From a virus, in IMG/VR virus record IMGVR_UViG_3300044646_001083, positions 1 to 28,224 of that record: DNA of 28,224 nucleotides, one strand, 5' to 3'. The number at the start of each line of letters is the position of its first letter. The first letter of the stretch is position 1. Both the position numbers and the translations under genes were made by a program. The notes below the pieces were generated by a model, which did not search any database, was not told the DNA's origin, and saw nothing but the letters and a program-made list of their open reading frames with translations. This document shows, in pieces, positions 9,568-15,398 of this stretch.

Positions 9568-9575
9568 TATTTATA
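9568..9575 (-). promoter_or_regulatory. Canonical T4 late promoter (TATAAATA)
   Basis: Exact late-promoter octamer on the minus strand. The implied +1 is about 9562, followed by GGAGG and the ATG of the glycine-zipper protein at 9544, an ideal spacing. It overlaps the end of the adenylosuccinate synthetase gene. Confidence 0.75.
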
Positions 9576-10557
9576 TTGAATGTGGAGTATCAGAGAATAT
9601 AACTTGAACATTATCTGGTAATGCTCTCACAATAACATCGATTAGCCCAAGGCGGCTACCAGCATCCCACTCAACATCATTCTTAAAATATCTATATGCA
9701 TTAGCCTGGTCAAGGATATCAATCTTATTAACAACAAGATGGGTAATGTCATTTACCCTTGCAGCATATGCAACCTTATCTAAGTTAATCCAATTGCACT
9801 TTCTTGGGCGGCCAGTGGTTGCGCCAAACTCTTGACCGTGAATCTGAACCTTCTTGAGTTCCTCGCAATGCATTCCGAAGTCTTTGGTTCCAACATATGT
9901 TTCATATGCTTTGGCAACACCATAGATTTTTCTAATTTTTCTAGGCGACACACCATTTAGAACAACAGAACCAATAGTACAGTGGGAAGAAGTAACATAA
10001 GGATAATCACCCCAATCAATATCCAAAGCAAAGCCTTGAGCACCTTCGGCGAGAACACGAGCGCCATCAAGAAGATGAAGACTATCAACAATGGTGAACT
10101 TATCAGTATTAATAAGCTGATCACCAATCCTAATACCAGTGCGTCCATATTTGTTCCTGTAGGCTGGGCCTATTCCTTGCTTAGTTGTACCAATGGCTGT
10201 ATCGTTATTGTCTTCTGCCAAATGCTCTTCAGTTACGACATGAGCCCTTGAGTCAACAAAAATAAGGCCTTCTGTTTTGAATCCATTTGCATTAAGATAT
10301 GCAATTTCCTCTTCAAGCTTCCTTACATTAACTACACAGCCAATACCAATTAAAGATCGGATGCCGTAGAGAACTCCAGCTGGCACTTGATGTGTGACAA
10401 TCTTCTCGCCATTGTGGTAGATAGTATGTCCAGCATTCGAGCCACCATTATATCGGAGAACTAGGTTGTACTCTCCACCACTTAGTAAAGAATGAGTAAC
10501 CTTACCTTTTCCAGTATCACCTGACTGGAGGTCTACAACAACATCGCAGTAATTCAT
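9571..10557 (-). CDS. purA: Short adenylosuccinate synthetase (PurA/PurZ family)
   Basis: A 328-residue member of the adenylosuccinate synthetase family, which joins IMP and aspartate using GTP in AMP synthesis; the PurZ subgroup instead uses dGMP to make diaminopurine nucleotides in Z-genome phages. Visible are GDTGKGK (13-19, aligned with GDEGKGK), SNAGHT with the catalytic-position His (H44), GIGPAY (129-133), EGAQG, FGATTGRPRK (244-253) and NKID (277-280, the guanine specificity motif). About 100 residues shorter than E. coli PurA, lacking about 50 around residue 160, as in archaeal and PurZ enzymes. D14 at the catalytic-Asp position is retained, which favours PurA; PurZ is reported to lack it. 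ATGA overlap upstream. Confidence 0.85.
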   Translation of the reverse strand: MNYCDVVVDLQSGDTGKGKVTHSLLSGGEYNLVLRYNGGSNAGHTIYHNGEKIVTHQVPAGVLYGIRSLIGIGCVVNVRKLEEEIAYLNANGFKTEGLIFVDSRAHVVTEEHLAEDNNDTAIGTTKQGIGPAYRNKYGRTGIRIGDQLINTDKFTIVDSLHLLDGARVLAEGAQGFALDIDWGDYPYVTSSHCTIGSVVLNGVSPRKIRKIYGVAKAYETYVGTKDFGMHCEELKKVQIHGQEFGATTGRPRKCNWINLDKVAYAARVNDITHLVVNKIDILDQANAYRYFKNDVEWDAGSRLGLIDVIVRALPDNVQVIFSDTPHSI

Positions 10558-11268: not shown

Positions 11269-11895
11269 CTAGTGGTAGAAGATATGATTACCAATCTGTC
11301 TTACGACCTTTTTGGTATTTGACCAAGTAGGGTCAACATAAGTTGCATGGAAGAACTTTGCGCTGCCGACAACATTGTACGATCTCTTGTTAATCAGAAT
11401 GTTTTCGGCAATCTTTAGAGATTCTCTCCATGCAGGACCAGATCGAGCATGAAGGTCATTTTCACACACCCAAGAGAATTGACAGACGCCTTTATACTTT
11501 TGGTAAACAACACCACATACGGATCTTGGAAACTGATTGCTCTTTACTCTATTCATTGTAACTTGAGCAACAGCAAGTTTACCATCACGAGGCTCGGAAC
11601 CGGCCTCATAGTAGATGTTCTTAGCAAGACATTCGACCTCTCGCATGACCTTTTGCTTCTTATCATAAGATAGCTCAAGGAACTCCATACGGGTGTTCAT
11701 GTCCTCCATTTGAGCCATGAGAAAGATATTTCTTTGTTGCTCGGCTTCGAGTTTGTCCATTGATTCAAAATGTATTGTGAATGGTACATAAAGAAAAAAG
11801 AACAACATTGCAAATAGGCCGCCAAACCTAATAAACAAGTTATGGTTTCTATCAAAATATGCTTCAATACGATCTAAAATTTCTACTGCTTTCAT
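11269..11895 (-). CDS. SleB-like cell-wall hydrolase with membrane anchor
   Basis: A 208-residue protein. Residues 21-39 form a transmembrane segment after a short charged N-terminus, then a coiled-coil linker (about 45-85), then a Hydrolase_2/SleB domain from about 88 to the end: AKNIYYEAGSEPRDGKLAVA (91-110) with the catalytic Glu in YYEA (E97), TMNRV, CQFSW, and the final ATYVDPTW. SleB-type enzymes are peptidoglycan amidases or lytic transglycosylases. The membrane anchor suggests a signal-anchor endolysin facing the periplasm. Preceded by GGAGG. It lies just after the tmRNA terminator, far from the spanins and holin candidate. Confidence 0.8.
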   Translation of the reverse strand: MKAVEILDRIEAYFDRNHNLFIRFGGLFAMLFFFLYVPFTIHFESMDKLEAEQQRNIFLMAQMEDMNTRMEFLELSYDKKQKVMREVECLAKNIYYEAGSEPRDGKLAVAQVTMNRVKSNQFPRSVCGVVYQKYKGVCQFSWVCENDLHARSGPAWRESLKIAENILINKRSYNVVGSAKFFHATYVDPTWSNTKKVVRQIGNHIFYH

Positions 11896-11923
11896 GTTGT
11901 TACCTCCATTTATGCAGTCGGAA

Positions 11924-11954
11924 GAAAAAGGCGGACGGTTTTTACGCCGCCGCC
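11924..11954 (-). terminator. Rho-independent terminator after tmRNA
   Basis: On the minus strand a stem GGCGG-CGG pairs with CCG-T-CCGCC (8 bp, one bulged T, loop of about 8 nt), followed by TTTTT. It lies a few bases after the last tmRNA pseudoknot and before the next gene's Shine-Dalgarno. This is the strongest terminator in the window. Confidence 0.85.
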
Positions 11955-11956
11955 TC

Positions 11957-12280
11957 TGACCTTTCTGTTACCAAGTGGTCAACTCTGGTAATCTACAACT
12001 GCAATTAAGCAGCTAGAGCCATGTTGTAAACATCATCGTTTGCGTTTACTAGTTTTGCGCTGATTAAGTCAGTCGCCTCACTGGTAGCCCTTAGGTTATT
12101 ACTTGCCCTGTCGAAGCCAAATTCATCCCCGTCAGATAGCCACCACGTACATTGCTGCAGAGGTGATGGGCATTTGGTGGAGATGTCGGGGGTCGAACCC
12201 GAGTCCAGAACACCTTTAGCTATGAGTTTACTACCATTACTTTTTTGCAAACTGGTAGATGTAATTCAACCAGATTGCAA
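11957..12280 (-). ncRNA. ssrA: Circularly permuted (two-piece type) tmRNA
   Basis: Ribosome-rescue tmRNA with permuted order. First comes the acceptor half: T arm TCGGG-TTCGACC-CCCGA (12202-12186), acceptor strand CATCTCC, discriminator A and CCA (12185-12175). After a 44-nt intervening segment with its own hairpin comes the coding half, starting GGGGATG (12130-12124) and TTGGCTTCGACAGGG, then the tag. GGGGATG pairs with CATCTCC over 7 bp, with G3 opposite U, the alanyl-tRNA synthetase identity pair. Pseudoknots: stem 12280-12269/12256-12245 with loop ATTAC pairing GTAAT at 12240-12236, and after the tag TTACCA/TGGTAA interleaved with TGACC/GGTCA (11991-11957). A P2-like pairing joins 12096-12086 to 12221-12212. 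Outer ends are approximate. Confidence 0.9.
12005..12043 (-). other. tmRNA tag reading frame (ANDDVYNMALAA)
   Basis: The tag part of the tmRNA: GCA AAC GAT GAT ... GCT GCT TAA, giving ANDDVYNMALAA and a stop. It ends in the Ala-Ala proteolysis signal seen in tmRNA tags and starts with the usual AND pattern. The exact resume codon could be one or two triplets earlier, since the upstream CTAGTA is not a perfect match to the E. coli signal. Confidence 0.8.
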
Positions 12281-12300
12281 TACCTATCAACCAATAATAA

Positions 12301-12465
12301 TTAGGCAACAATTCCATACTGTTCACGTAGAATCTTTTTATAGGGACCACCTTCTTCAATCAACCTGCTAACAAGCATTAACTTCTGAGCAAGATCATTA
12401 TCACCGCTCTTTTCTAAAGCAGCAACAATTGTACGAAGGTCTACATTATCGATAGGAAGATCCAT
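12301..12465 (-). CDS. Small phage protein upstream of tmRNA
   Basis: A 54-residue acidic helical protein beginning MDLPIDNVDLRTIVAALEKS and ending with GPYKKILREQYGIVA. It follows a tandem early/late promoter by about 25 nt with a weak GAGG Shine-Dalgarno and ends about 20 nt before the first tmRNA stem, so it is co-transcribed with the tmRNA. No recognised domain. Confidence 0.6.
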   Translation of the reverse strand: MDLPIDNVDLRTIVAALEKSGDNDLAQKLMLVSRLIEEGGPYKKILREQYGIVA

Positions 12466-12497: not shown

Positions 12498-12526
12498 ATT
12501 ATACAGGATTCAAATGGTCAAGTCAA
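12498..12526 (-). promoter_or_regulatory. Strong sigma70-like promoter (TTGACT-N17-TATAAT)
   Basis: Near-consensus promoter: TTGACT at 12526-12521 and TATAAT at 12503-12498 with an ideal 17-nt spacer. It would drive the 54-residue protein and the tmRNA using the host's housekeeping RNA polymerase. Confidence 0.75.
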
Positions 12527-12980: not shown

Positions 12981-13559
12981 TTAAAGATCTTTAAGAGTCT
13001 TCTCACCAACTTGACGATTACACTGGCAAAGTTCCTTTGTCTGCAATGCATCTAGAATGCGAAGTGTCTCATCAGGATTACGACCAACATCTAGATTATT
13101 CACACTTACATGCTGAATTTCGTTGTTTGGATCAACAATGAATGTTGCACGAAGGGCTGCACCAGCTGGATTGAAGAATACACCTAACTGATCAACTAGG
13201 CTTAGATTAACATATTCTTCATCAGTGTGATATACTCTTTGTGTATCAGCAAACAACCAAGAAGTTGTCTTCTTTAGATCTTCATGTGCATTCTTCCATG
13301 CTAGCTTACAGAACTCGTTGTCTGTTGAACCAATTAGAAGAACTGCATCGCGATCAGCAAAGTCCTTATTCAACTTATCGTAGGCCACAATCTCTGTTGG
13401 GCATACAAATGTAAAATCCTTTGGATAGTAAACAATTACTTTCCATCTACCCTTCCAGGTTTCTTCTGTAATGTCAACAAATGCACCTTCTGGTGCTAGG
13501 GCACCTGGCTTAACGCCTGTTACAAGAAACTTTTCTAGCTTATCACCTACCGTCTTCAT
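12981..13559 (-). CDS. ahpC: 2-Cys peroxiredoxin (AhpC/TSA family)
   Basis: A 192-residue peroxiredoxin that reduces hydrogen peroxide and organic peroxides. The peroxidatic Cys lies in DFTFVCPTE (48-56, C53). The partner Cys is in LCQCNRQVGEKTL near the C-terminus (C178/C180), corresponding to the typical C-terminal CPC-type motif with P replaced by Q. VDPNNEIQHVSVNNLDVGRN matches the family's central region. Good AAGGAG Shine-Dalgarno. In a phage it probably protects against oxidative stress during infection; reducing partners (AhpF, thioredoxin) are not in this window. Confidence 0.85.
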   Translation of the reverse strand: MKTVGDKLEKFLVTGVKPGALAPEGAFVDITEETWKGRWKVIVYYPKDFTFVCPTEIVAYDKLNKDFADRDAVLLIGSTDNEFCKLAWKNAHEDLKKTTSWLFADTQRVYHTDEEYVNLSLVDQLGVFFNPAGAALRATFIVDPNNEIQHVSVNNLDVGRNPDETLRILDALQTKELCQCNRQVGEKTLKDL

Positions 13560-13733: not shown

Positions 13734-13754
13734 TTGATAGACTTACTCTATCAA
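13734..13754 (-). terminator. Perfect 8-bp hairpin at gene end (weak terminator?)
   Basis: TTGATAGA / TCTATCAA stem with a 5-nt loop overlapping the stop codon of the APS-kinase fusion gene, followed by TTCTT. It separates that gene from the mini-protein and peroxiredoxin. The T run is weak, so it may instead stabilise the mRNA 3' end. Confidence 0.4.
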
Positions 13755-14542
13755 CCAATTCCCATCTCTTTTCTGATCTTGGTGGCAGAGATTGCTTGAA
13801 TGTCTTCTGGCAATTCAATCTTACTAATTGTATAACCAACATCTCTACCATAAGAAATATCTACAATGTTTGGAACCCAAACGATTGTGAACTTACCAAT
13901 ATAGTTTTGAAGCTTACGCATGATGAGACGCTCTGTCTCGATAATAGTAAATGGATTATTATCATCCTTAGGCATCTGTCTGACCATAATTGCAACCTGA
14001 CCAGTTTTCTTCAATGCCTCTTCAAACAATGCTTTGTGGCCATCGTGGAATGGTTGGTATCTACCCATCATTTGCACTGTTGGTTTAGTGTTATCCCAAG
14101 TATCATACTTTAATTGGTATACGATCTCAAGTGTGAGATCATCACTCTCTTCCCAAGACATAACCCAATGAGTAATATTTTTTGGTCTTGCAAACACCTT
14201 ATTTGTATCTTCAAATCTACCTTCAGTGATGGTATCCATAAAGATGATAGTATCAAACTTGAAAAGATCCTGTGCCTCTAGTGTAGGGCAGACAAAATCG
14301 CAAACAGCATGATAGCCTCTTTTCAATGACTGCTCAGCTAGATCTCTCATTCGCTTGGCTTGTCTCATTCTACCTTCTGGCGAGAAGTCCCAATCATTAT
14401 GCAACTGTCTTACAAGGTCTGCATTATAGTGCTCGACTTTTTCGTCGTTAGCTCTGAGTAGCTCTACCAACTTTGTGGCAAATGTTGTCTTACCGGAACC
14501 AGGTAATCCCATAACGAGAAAAATTTGTGGATGCGTTTCCAT
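13751..14542 (-). CDS. APS-kinase-like / nucleotidyltransferase fusion
   Basis: A 263-residue two-domain protein. The N-terminal half is a P-loop kinase like CysC (adenylylsulfate kinase): Walker A GLPGSGKTT (12-20), ADLVRQ (41-46) and CDFVCP (81-86), the PAPS-forming kinase pattern. The C-terminal half is an HIGH-type nucleotidyltransferase: GRYQPFHDGH (160-169) and ISATKIRKEM (251-260), as in NMN/cytidylyl transferases. A sulfurylase plus kinase would give PAPS, but the second domain is not clearly ATP sulfurylase. Start is an ATG with GAGG at 6 nt (a longer TTG start is rejected). It follows two sulfotransferase-like genes, which supports a sulfation role. Confidence 0.75.
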   Translation of the reverse strand: METHPQIFLVMGLPGSGKTTFATKLVELLRANDEKVEHYNADLVRQLHNDWDFSPEGRMRQAKRMRDLAEQSLKRGYHAVCDFVCPTLEAQDLFKFDTIIFMDTITEGRFEDTNKVFARPKNITHWVMSWEESDDLTLEIVYQLKYDTWDNTKPTVQMMGRYQPFHDGHKALFEEALKKTGQVAIMVRQMPKDDNNPFTIIETERLIMRKLQNYIGKFTIVWVPNIVDISYGRDVGYTISKIELPEDIQAISATKIRKEMGIG

Positions 14543-14543
14543 A

Positions 14544-15398
14544 TTAAACCTCAACTAGATACCTGTGTCTATCAACATAATACAATGCCTGCTGCCAGGC
14601 TCCTAGTATTGGAGCTGGTAAGTCATCAGTAATAACTACTTTGTTTGTATTGTGAGGAGTTGGCACAAGGTGAACCTTCTCCTTCTGATACTGCTGGATA
14701 TGCTGCTGTGTGATACCAAACTTTTCAAGTTGAAGAGGTTTGATATTATCTTCATATGATACTAACTTGATATCATTTTTAAATCTATCGTATACAACAC
14801 GCCACATGAATAGCTGACTAATAAAGATTTGTGTATACATATTTAACCAACTAAATGGTACATGCATCGTATCATACTTAATGCAACTATCTTCATTTGT
14901 AAAAATAAACGTACTCGACCTCACGTTTGGTCTAAGGTTTGGAAACTTTCTGTAATTTTCATCTTGTTGTATTCTGTATCTAGCATTTATCTTAGATATA
15001 AACTGCTCAATAATATTTTTACGGTGGGTCATGTATACATTGACACCATTGTCAATACAGTACTGAATAAAAGAGAAGTCTATAGTTTGCTTTTCAAGCT
15101 GCTCTTTTGCTGTCCAGCTCTCATTGGATTGTTTTAAAATTTCAATTCTTTTAGACTTTGCCTTGAAGAAACCTATATTATCAAACCCGTTTGTAGTTTC
15201 ATTATGGTACCTCGCTGTTAAGTTACTAGAGAATTGATTATATAATTCACTCTGTCTCTGAGTATCTTTATTGTAGTTATATGGTCGTACAAGACTATGC
15301 AGACCTTCACCCAGATTAATAGTACCTTGACTATAAGATATTAAATCAGTTAGTACAGTGCTACCCGATCTATTTGTAAATAAGATTAAATTATTCAT
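14544..15398 (-). CDS. Sulfotransferase-like protein 1
   Basis: A 284-residue protein with the N-terminal P-loop-like motif TNRSGSTVLTDL (8-19), the 5'-phosphosulfate binding loop of PAPS sulfotransferases, and MTHRKNIIEQF further on, matching the 3'-phosphate binding Arg region. No signal peptide. Acceptor unknown. It overlaps the second sulfotransferase-like gene by 8 nt and is followed within 2 nt by the APS-kinase fusion, so all three are probably one transcript. Confidence 0.7.
   Translation of the reverse strand: MNNLILFTNRSGSTVLTDLISYSQGTINLGEGLHSLVRPYNYNKDTQRQSELYNQFSSNLTARYHNETTNGFDNIGFFKAKSKRIEILKQSNESWTAKEQLEKQTIDFSFIQYCIDNGVNVYMTHRKNIIEQFISKINARYRIQQDENYRKFPNLRPNVRSSTFIFTNEDSCIKYDTMHVPFSWLNMYTQIFISQLFMWRVVYDRFKNDIKLVSYEDNIKPLQLEKFGITQQHIQQYQKEKVHLVPTPHNTNKVVITDDLPAPILGAWQQALYYVDRHRYLVEV

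Follow-up and report, generated by a model that had tools for sequence, protein, structure and literature searches.

The permuted tmRNA locus

The window, i.e. the whole stretch of DNA analysed here, is a virus record of 28,224 bases. Its minus strand carries a circularly permuted (two-piece) tmRNA gene at 12282-11926. ARAGORN reports one permuted tmRNA (11914-12267, minus strand) with the tag ANDDVYNMALAA*. Using cmscan, matches were obtained to the Rfam families RF04321 (tmRNA_permuted; 12235-12005, 144.5 bits, E 8e-29, model positions 1-213 of 213) and RF01850 (beta_tmRNA; 12282-11926, 121.2 bits, E 1e-36, full length). The gathering cut-offs are 47 and 84 bits, respectively, and both scores are thus far over threshold. 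This confirms the first-pass annotation, which had proposed a phage-borne permuted tmRNA and named the permuted Rfam models as a check.

The permuted order can be read directly from the sequence. The precursor starts with the acceptor half including the T arm, followed by a segment of 44 nt and the coding half. The discriminator A is located at 12178, the encoded CCA at 12177-12175, and the coding half begins with GGGGATG at 12130. Together with the permuted call by ARAGORN, this agrees with the proposed arrangement of acceptor before coding half. The acceptor stem forms 7 of 7 pairs with G3.U70 (alanine-type), as had been described. An intact tag frame (GCA..TAA) is found exactly at the predicted position 12043-12005; it encodes ANDDVYNMALAA* and terminates in the degradation signal ALAA. 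A candidate sigma-70-like promoter stands upstream of a 54-codon ORF and the tmRNA. The features of the region are as follows.

12981-13559, minus strand: AhpC/TSA peroxiredoxin (PF00578), upstream neighbour of the tmRNA in most of the clade
12498-12526, minus strand: candidate promoter, sigma-70-like TTGACT-17-TATAAT, 11/12 consensus matches (2.1 expected by chance in the region)
12300-12464, minus strand: 54-aa ORF, phrog_38428 (phage family, unknown function), directly upstream of the tmRNA
12175-12239, minus strand: acceptor piece with P2 5' strand, T arm, 3' acceptor strand, discriminator A and CCA (5' end approximate)
12131-12174, minus strand: 44-nt intervening segment, expected to be removed from the precursor
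12140-12169, minus strand: conserved hairpin CCAUCAC[CUC]UGCA(GCAA)UGUA[C]GUGGUGG with GNRA tetraloop
11930-12130, minus strand: coding piece with GGGGATG 5' end, P2 3' strand, PK1 region, tag frame and 3' domain (3' end approximate)
12083-12093, minus strand: P2 3' strand (inter-piece helix), pairs with 12235-12231 and 12226-12221 (covariation)
12005-12043, minus strand: tag reading frame GCA..TAA, ANDDVYNMALAA* (sequence and ARAGORN)
11934-11951, minus strand: intrinsic-terminator-like stem followed by a T run
11269-11895, minus strand: SleB-type cell wall hydrolase (PF07486), downstream neighbour of the tmRNA in most of the clade

The best-scoring subtype of the window tmRNA is betaproteobacterial (beta_tmRNA, RF01850), whereby the subtype is defined as the best-scoring Rfam model above its cut-off, with lower-scoring members of the clan omitted from the output.

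Phage relatives and setting

The window encodes a T4-type RNase H, a primase, a ribonucleotide reductase, PurA, 2OG oxygenases, a peroxiredoxin and a SleB-type hydrolase. Its metabolic genes include adenylosuccinate synthetase (9571-10557), a kinase fused to a nucleotidyltransferase-like domain (13751-14554) and the peroxiredoxin (12981-13559). A comparison of the window's first 25 kb with INPHARED, at the sensitivity of megablast, gave no matching phage. A relative of 173 kb (L409) carries a T4-type capsid protein that is 55-56% identical to those of cyanophages and of Pelagibacter phage HTVC008M, and we therefore place the lineage of the window among uncultured T4-like phages.

A pattern scan of IMG/VR yielded at least 119 contigs, and in about 100 of these a permuted tmRNA was confirmed by ARAGORN. 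Rfam splits the pattern-matched relatives into an alpha-type (Melnitz, L025, L062 and others) and a beta-type (the window, L027, L040, L074 and others). In the tree, the window groups with full support in a clade that has a long stem and comprises 18 distinct tmRNAs. The same tmRNA is present in at least 52 further IMG/VR contigs, the union of two scans with 50 contigs each, one based on the hairpin sequence and the other on the coding piece without fixing the hairpin. Peroxiredoxin upstream and SleB hydrolase downstream of the tmRNA are found in most clade contigs with enough flanking sequence. In one contig (L391, 565-991, minus strand) the two-piece tmRNA is recombinant: its T arm and acceptor half differ from the usual ones and stand 85 nt upstream of the conserved hairpin, and the stretch between acceptor half and hairpin contains what is left of a second acceptor end (ATCCACCAAA).

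The peroxiredoxin of the window is closest to homologues in the Burkholderiales-type sample (70% versus 61% elsewhere in the phylum), a mild hint that the phage may have a betaproteobacterial host. Assigning a host from the tmRNA was not possible. An SmpB gene was found neither in the window nor in ten clade records, one of them 173 kb in length, and the tmRNA would therefore depend on the host for this protein.

Permuted phage tmRNAs as such have been published (PMC9004378), hence the tmRNA of the window is not a new kind. The study of Methylophilales phage Melnitz counted 53 suggested structures of this two-piece kind among phage genomes, of which 50 came from marine or aquatic samples (PMC9004378), and a tmRNA database holds 79 bacteriophage sequences of all forms (PMC11915505). 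Melnitz (MZ577097) and the pelagimyophages resemble the window in having a permuted tmRNA in a lytic T4-like (Kyanoviridae-type) aquatic phage (PMC9004378). In Melnitz, for which the authors report no integrase (PMC9004378), the tag likewise ends in ALAA and a cell wall hydrolase gene is found nearby. In contrast to the window, Melnitz is best described by the alpha model (106.7 bits), its tag is ANDNYVPVDYALAA instead of ANDDVYNMALAA, and a glutamine riboswitch adjoins its tmRNA, whereas an Rfam scan of the window gave no riboswitch match. Moreover the intervening segment of the window is distinct. Nearest by DNA in INPHARED are tmRNA-carrying phages such as Stenotrophomonas phage Mendera and mycobacteriophage Kumao. 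They also carry a phage-borne tmRNA and align in the T-arm region, but only 8-17% of the query is covered, on the T-arm side. We take both to be standard one-piece genes.

Structure and comparison with bacterial two-piece tmRNAs

The search pattern for relatives fixed acceptor pair 3 and left pair 5-68 free. The latter occurs as A-U, G-C, U-A or C-G in related phages and is never unpaired, so that the acceptor-stem covariation asked for in the first reading is indeed present. Pair 3 is G.U in the window and in all pattern-matched relatives, as set by the pattern.

In the alignment of 13 clade members 99.8% of the cells pair, a value that leans toward the drawn structure because the latter was drawn with these sequences in view. 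The compensatory changes are stronger evidence than the percentage paired. Seven pairs show two-sided changes, comprising 20 cells; neither this cell count nor the covariation score was reached by any of 500 shuffles, and two-sided changes are absent from slid controls of the alignment. Five of the seven covarying pairs fall in P2, whose strands are located on different mature pieces; along the strand 12083-12093 five of ten pairs change on both sides. The P2-like helix postulated earlier is thereby strongly supported. The other two compensatory pairs belong to a single small hairpin within the PK1 region (columns 176-188 of the alignment). An H-type knot near the tag region can be drawn by hand; the Rfam models carry no pseudoknot there. 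Taken together, the strong covariation argues that the tmRNA structure is under selection and kept as a working structure.

Among the closest known systems is also the betaproteobacterial two-piece tmRNA (RF01850; Rhodocyclaceae, Cupriavidus and others). Permuted order, acceptor stem, P2, PK1 region and 3' domain of the window tmRNA fit the whole model, and both precursors form a hairpin between the halves. There are three differences. Bacterial tags are mostly 10 aa long and of the ANDERF or ANDEQF type (ANDERFALAA, ANDEQFAIAA etc.), while clade tags mostly comprise 12-14 aa (ANDDVYNMALAA, ANDDYYEMALAA, ANDDSFTPMALAA, ANDAYYDQELPLAA and others; the recombinant L391 has the 10-aa tag ANDDVYSLAA). 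Secondly, the bacterial gene mostly lacks the last A of CCA: it is unencoded in 114 of 118 sampled betaproteobacterial permuted tmRNAs (loci L123-L242), for which the search pattern left the last base free. As these genes encode only CC, their 3' end must be completed after transcription. In contrast, CCA is encoded in the window and in all 50 phage contigs found by the hairpin sequence alone. The unencoded A is a statistical habit in betaproteobacteria rather than a formal criterion of RF01850, and the window does not share it. Thirdly, the intervening segment varies in bacteria and is near-invariant in the phage clade. Bacterial genome contigs scanned for CCA together with TTCGACAGGGC gave no match. 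A MAG contig labelled Rickettsiales (L200, around 2004) carries a permuted tmRNA with a long intervening inverted repeat of GGACTAGGACTAGG-like units.

Among the bacteria sampled, no coding piece comes closer than 76% identity, as compared to 87-100% in most of the phage clade. In the order containing Cupriavidus, the majority of the sampled genomes carry a standard tmRNA. For these reasons, and because the beta model scores best rather than the alpha or cyano type named in the first reading, the clue to the host lineage that was drawn there from the permuted type is weak. A recent bacterial capture was considered and rejected: BLAST against the 399 genomes sampled from the order to which Cupriavidus belongs returned short pieces only (e.g. 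93% over 29 nt or 83% over 47 nt), and a search of the family added one further match of 69%. The encoded CCA, the longer tags and the best bacterial identity of 76% point to a long phage history, and the tmRNA does not appear to be a recent capture from any bacterium sampled. Of the proposed alternative "captured or phage-tuned", the first part is thus not upheld for recent events; phage tuning is plausible in view of the longer tags, the encoded CCA and the conserved precursor hairpin.

The conserved hairpin and the role of the RNA

Between CCA and GGGG the clade keeps AATGCCCATCACCTCTGCAGCAATGTACGTGGTGGCTATCTGAC nearly unchanged. The intervening segment is 0.93-1.00 identical to that of the window in 14 of 16 representatives; the remaining two reach 0.75-0.76 and have an insertion of 7-8 nt beside the hairpin. 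Four-fold sites of the flanking peroxiredoxin and hydrolase show identities of 0.34-0.63, which is close to saturated given a chance level of 0.32. At a neutral identity of 0.52, the probability of at least 41 matches in 44 positions is 4e-9. At a core identity of 0.90-0.95, the segment is 0.65 identical among bacteria versus 0.93 in the phage clade, although equal core identity may mean older divergence in bacteria. Other phage clades show intervening identities close to 0.93 at comparable core identity.

The hairpin consists of a 7-bp stem and a 4-bp stem capped by a tetraloop. The loop is GCAA in 31 members, GUAA in 13, GAAA in 6 and another sequence in 2, i.e. GNRA in 50/52, or 51/53 including L391. 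One stem pair occurs as U.G, U-A or C-G; this single variable pair is not above shuffles by itself. In all members the hairpin ends exactly 9 nt before the GGGG of the coding piece, while the spacing between CCA and the hairpin ranges from 5 to about 85 nt. L391 has retained the hairpin below a different acceptor half. Precursors of betaproteobacteria form a hairpin at the same place as well (103/103); hence what distinguishes the phages is the near-invariance of the hairpin and not its mere presence in the precursor. A peptide reading of the segment (ATGCCC..TGA, 13 codons) was rejected: L036, L412 and L391 have lost the start codon, and the changes observed are not synonymous.

Judged from its position near the future 5' end, the hairpin probably guides processing of the precursor. 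The broader proposal that the excised segment is a conserved structured RNA element with a dedicated role, e.g. a cis processing element or a released regulatory RNA, has in our view a somewhat less than even chance of being right. The literature searched, which missed the primary two-piece tmRNA papers, assigns no such role to the segment that is excised from two-piece tmRNAs.

A less likely reading is that the hairpin has a function of its own instead of aiding processing, and that cutting of the tmRNA sets it free as a stable small RNA or a site for protein binding. Its conservation, which about equals that of the tmRNA core, would be expected in this case, as would the maintenance of the GNRA-capped form through substitutions in loop and stem and its persistence in L391 despite a different acceptor half 85 nt away. 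However, in the viral contigs searched it was found only attached to this tmRNA, it is absent from the 399 bacterial genomes of the sampled order, and the constant 9 nt to the coding piece fit a role in cis.

We consider it rather improbable that the segment merely seems conserved through recent recombinational exchange of a short tmRNA cassette among phages. T4-like phages are mosaic, and across the clade neither T arm nor acceptor varies, which would fit such an exchange. But P2, tag and 3' domain of the very same gene differ strongly, the hairpin and its surroundings show independent indels as well as changes that preserve pairing, and L391 has kept the hairpin with a different acceptor half.

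As to the RNA as a whole, the sequence data make it very probable that the locus encodes the complete permuted tmRNA of a long-established T4-like phage lineage, functional in ribosome rescue together with host SmpB. According to this model host RNase P would cut the precursor at 12130/12131 and tRNA 3'-end processing would trim it after 12175, with the hairpin in the discarded segment most probably positioning or protecting the precursor for correct 5' processing. The two mature pieces would stay joined by the acceptor and P2 helices and, by analogy with tmRNA biology, would be charged with alanine. Host SmpB would then bring the RNA to ribosomes stalled on fragments of phage or host mRNA during infection, where the ANDDVYNMALAA tag would be added and the ribosome freed. 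Obvious options for a benefit to the phage are the rescue of ribosomes stalled on mRNA degraded in infection, or the disposal of truncated proteins.

Alternatively, the phage RNA could be a decoy which competes with or inhibits host trans-translation. A tag-less tmRNA-like RNA with a reported inhibitory effect is known from mycobacteriophage DS6A (PMC11915505), and SmpB is not encoded in the window or the ten clade records. A decoy would not need a tag, a stop codon or an [LM]AA end, but the full frame with stop codon and [LM]AA ending is found in every clade member whose tag was read, which makes this explanation still more improbable than a cassette exchange. Integrating phages often use ssrA as their target, and pieces of this gene are known from prophages (PMC9004378); the locus might accordingly be a non-functional leftover of host ssrA, acquired when an integrating phage excised imprecisely. 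This is already contradicted by the covariation, and the gene is complete, spread over 53 contigs and no more than 76% identical in its coding piece to any bacterial tmRNA sampled, in phages with T4-like gene content and, in a clade member, a T4-like capsid, so that we regard it as next to impossible.

The functional two-piece tmRNA favoured here extends phage-borne two-piece tmRNAs, so far mainly of the marine alpha-type, to a T4-like lineage of the beta-type with more than 50 contigs. This beta-type lineage and its conserved hairpin in a stretch expected to be discarded are the new part. They raise the questions why a ribosome-rescue RNA with a longer tag of its own kind is maintained by the phages themselves, and why a presumed waste segment ranks among the most conserved parts of the precursor. 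To our knowledge, the cutting of permuted tmRNA precursors in bacteria has seemingly been little studied, and the conserved hairpin offers a concrete handle on this step.

Tags of unusual length were observed in other phage tmRNAs. Permuted tmRNAs in eight contigs (L258, L266, L277, L267, L256, L257, L309 and L304) have odd tags of 24-30 aa according to ARAGORN, e.g. ANDDSFDFAALSFTGNTVGGRVALAA, AKASTGEVTVSGKNVKFSARTAKAESFAV and ANADTFEFGALNFTGNTVGAANEGRFALAA, some of which end without the usual degradation signal. Among the phage tmRNAs of L008, L021 and L066 and of L003, L014 and L076, some carry the 8-aa tag ADAELVAA and others tags of 22-25 aa (ANKRALGFADLT..RLAA); those of L008 and L003 score as alpha-type.
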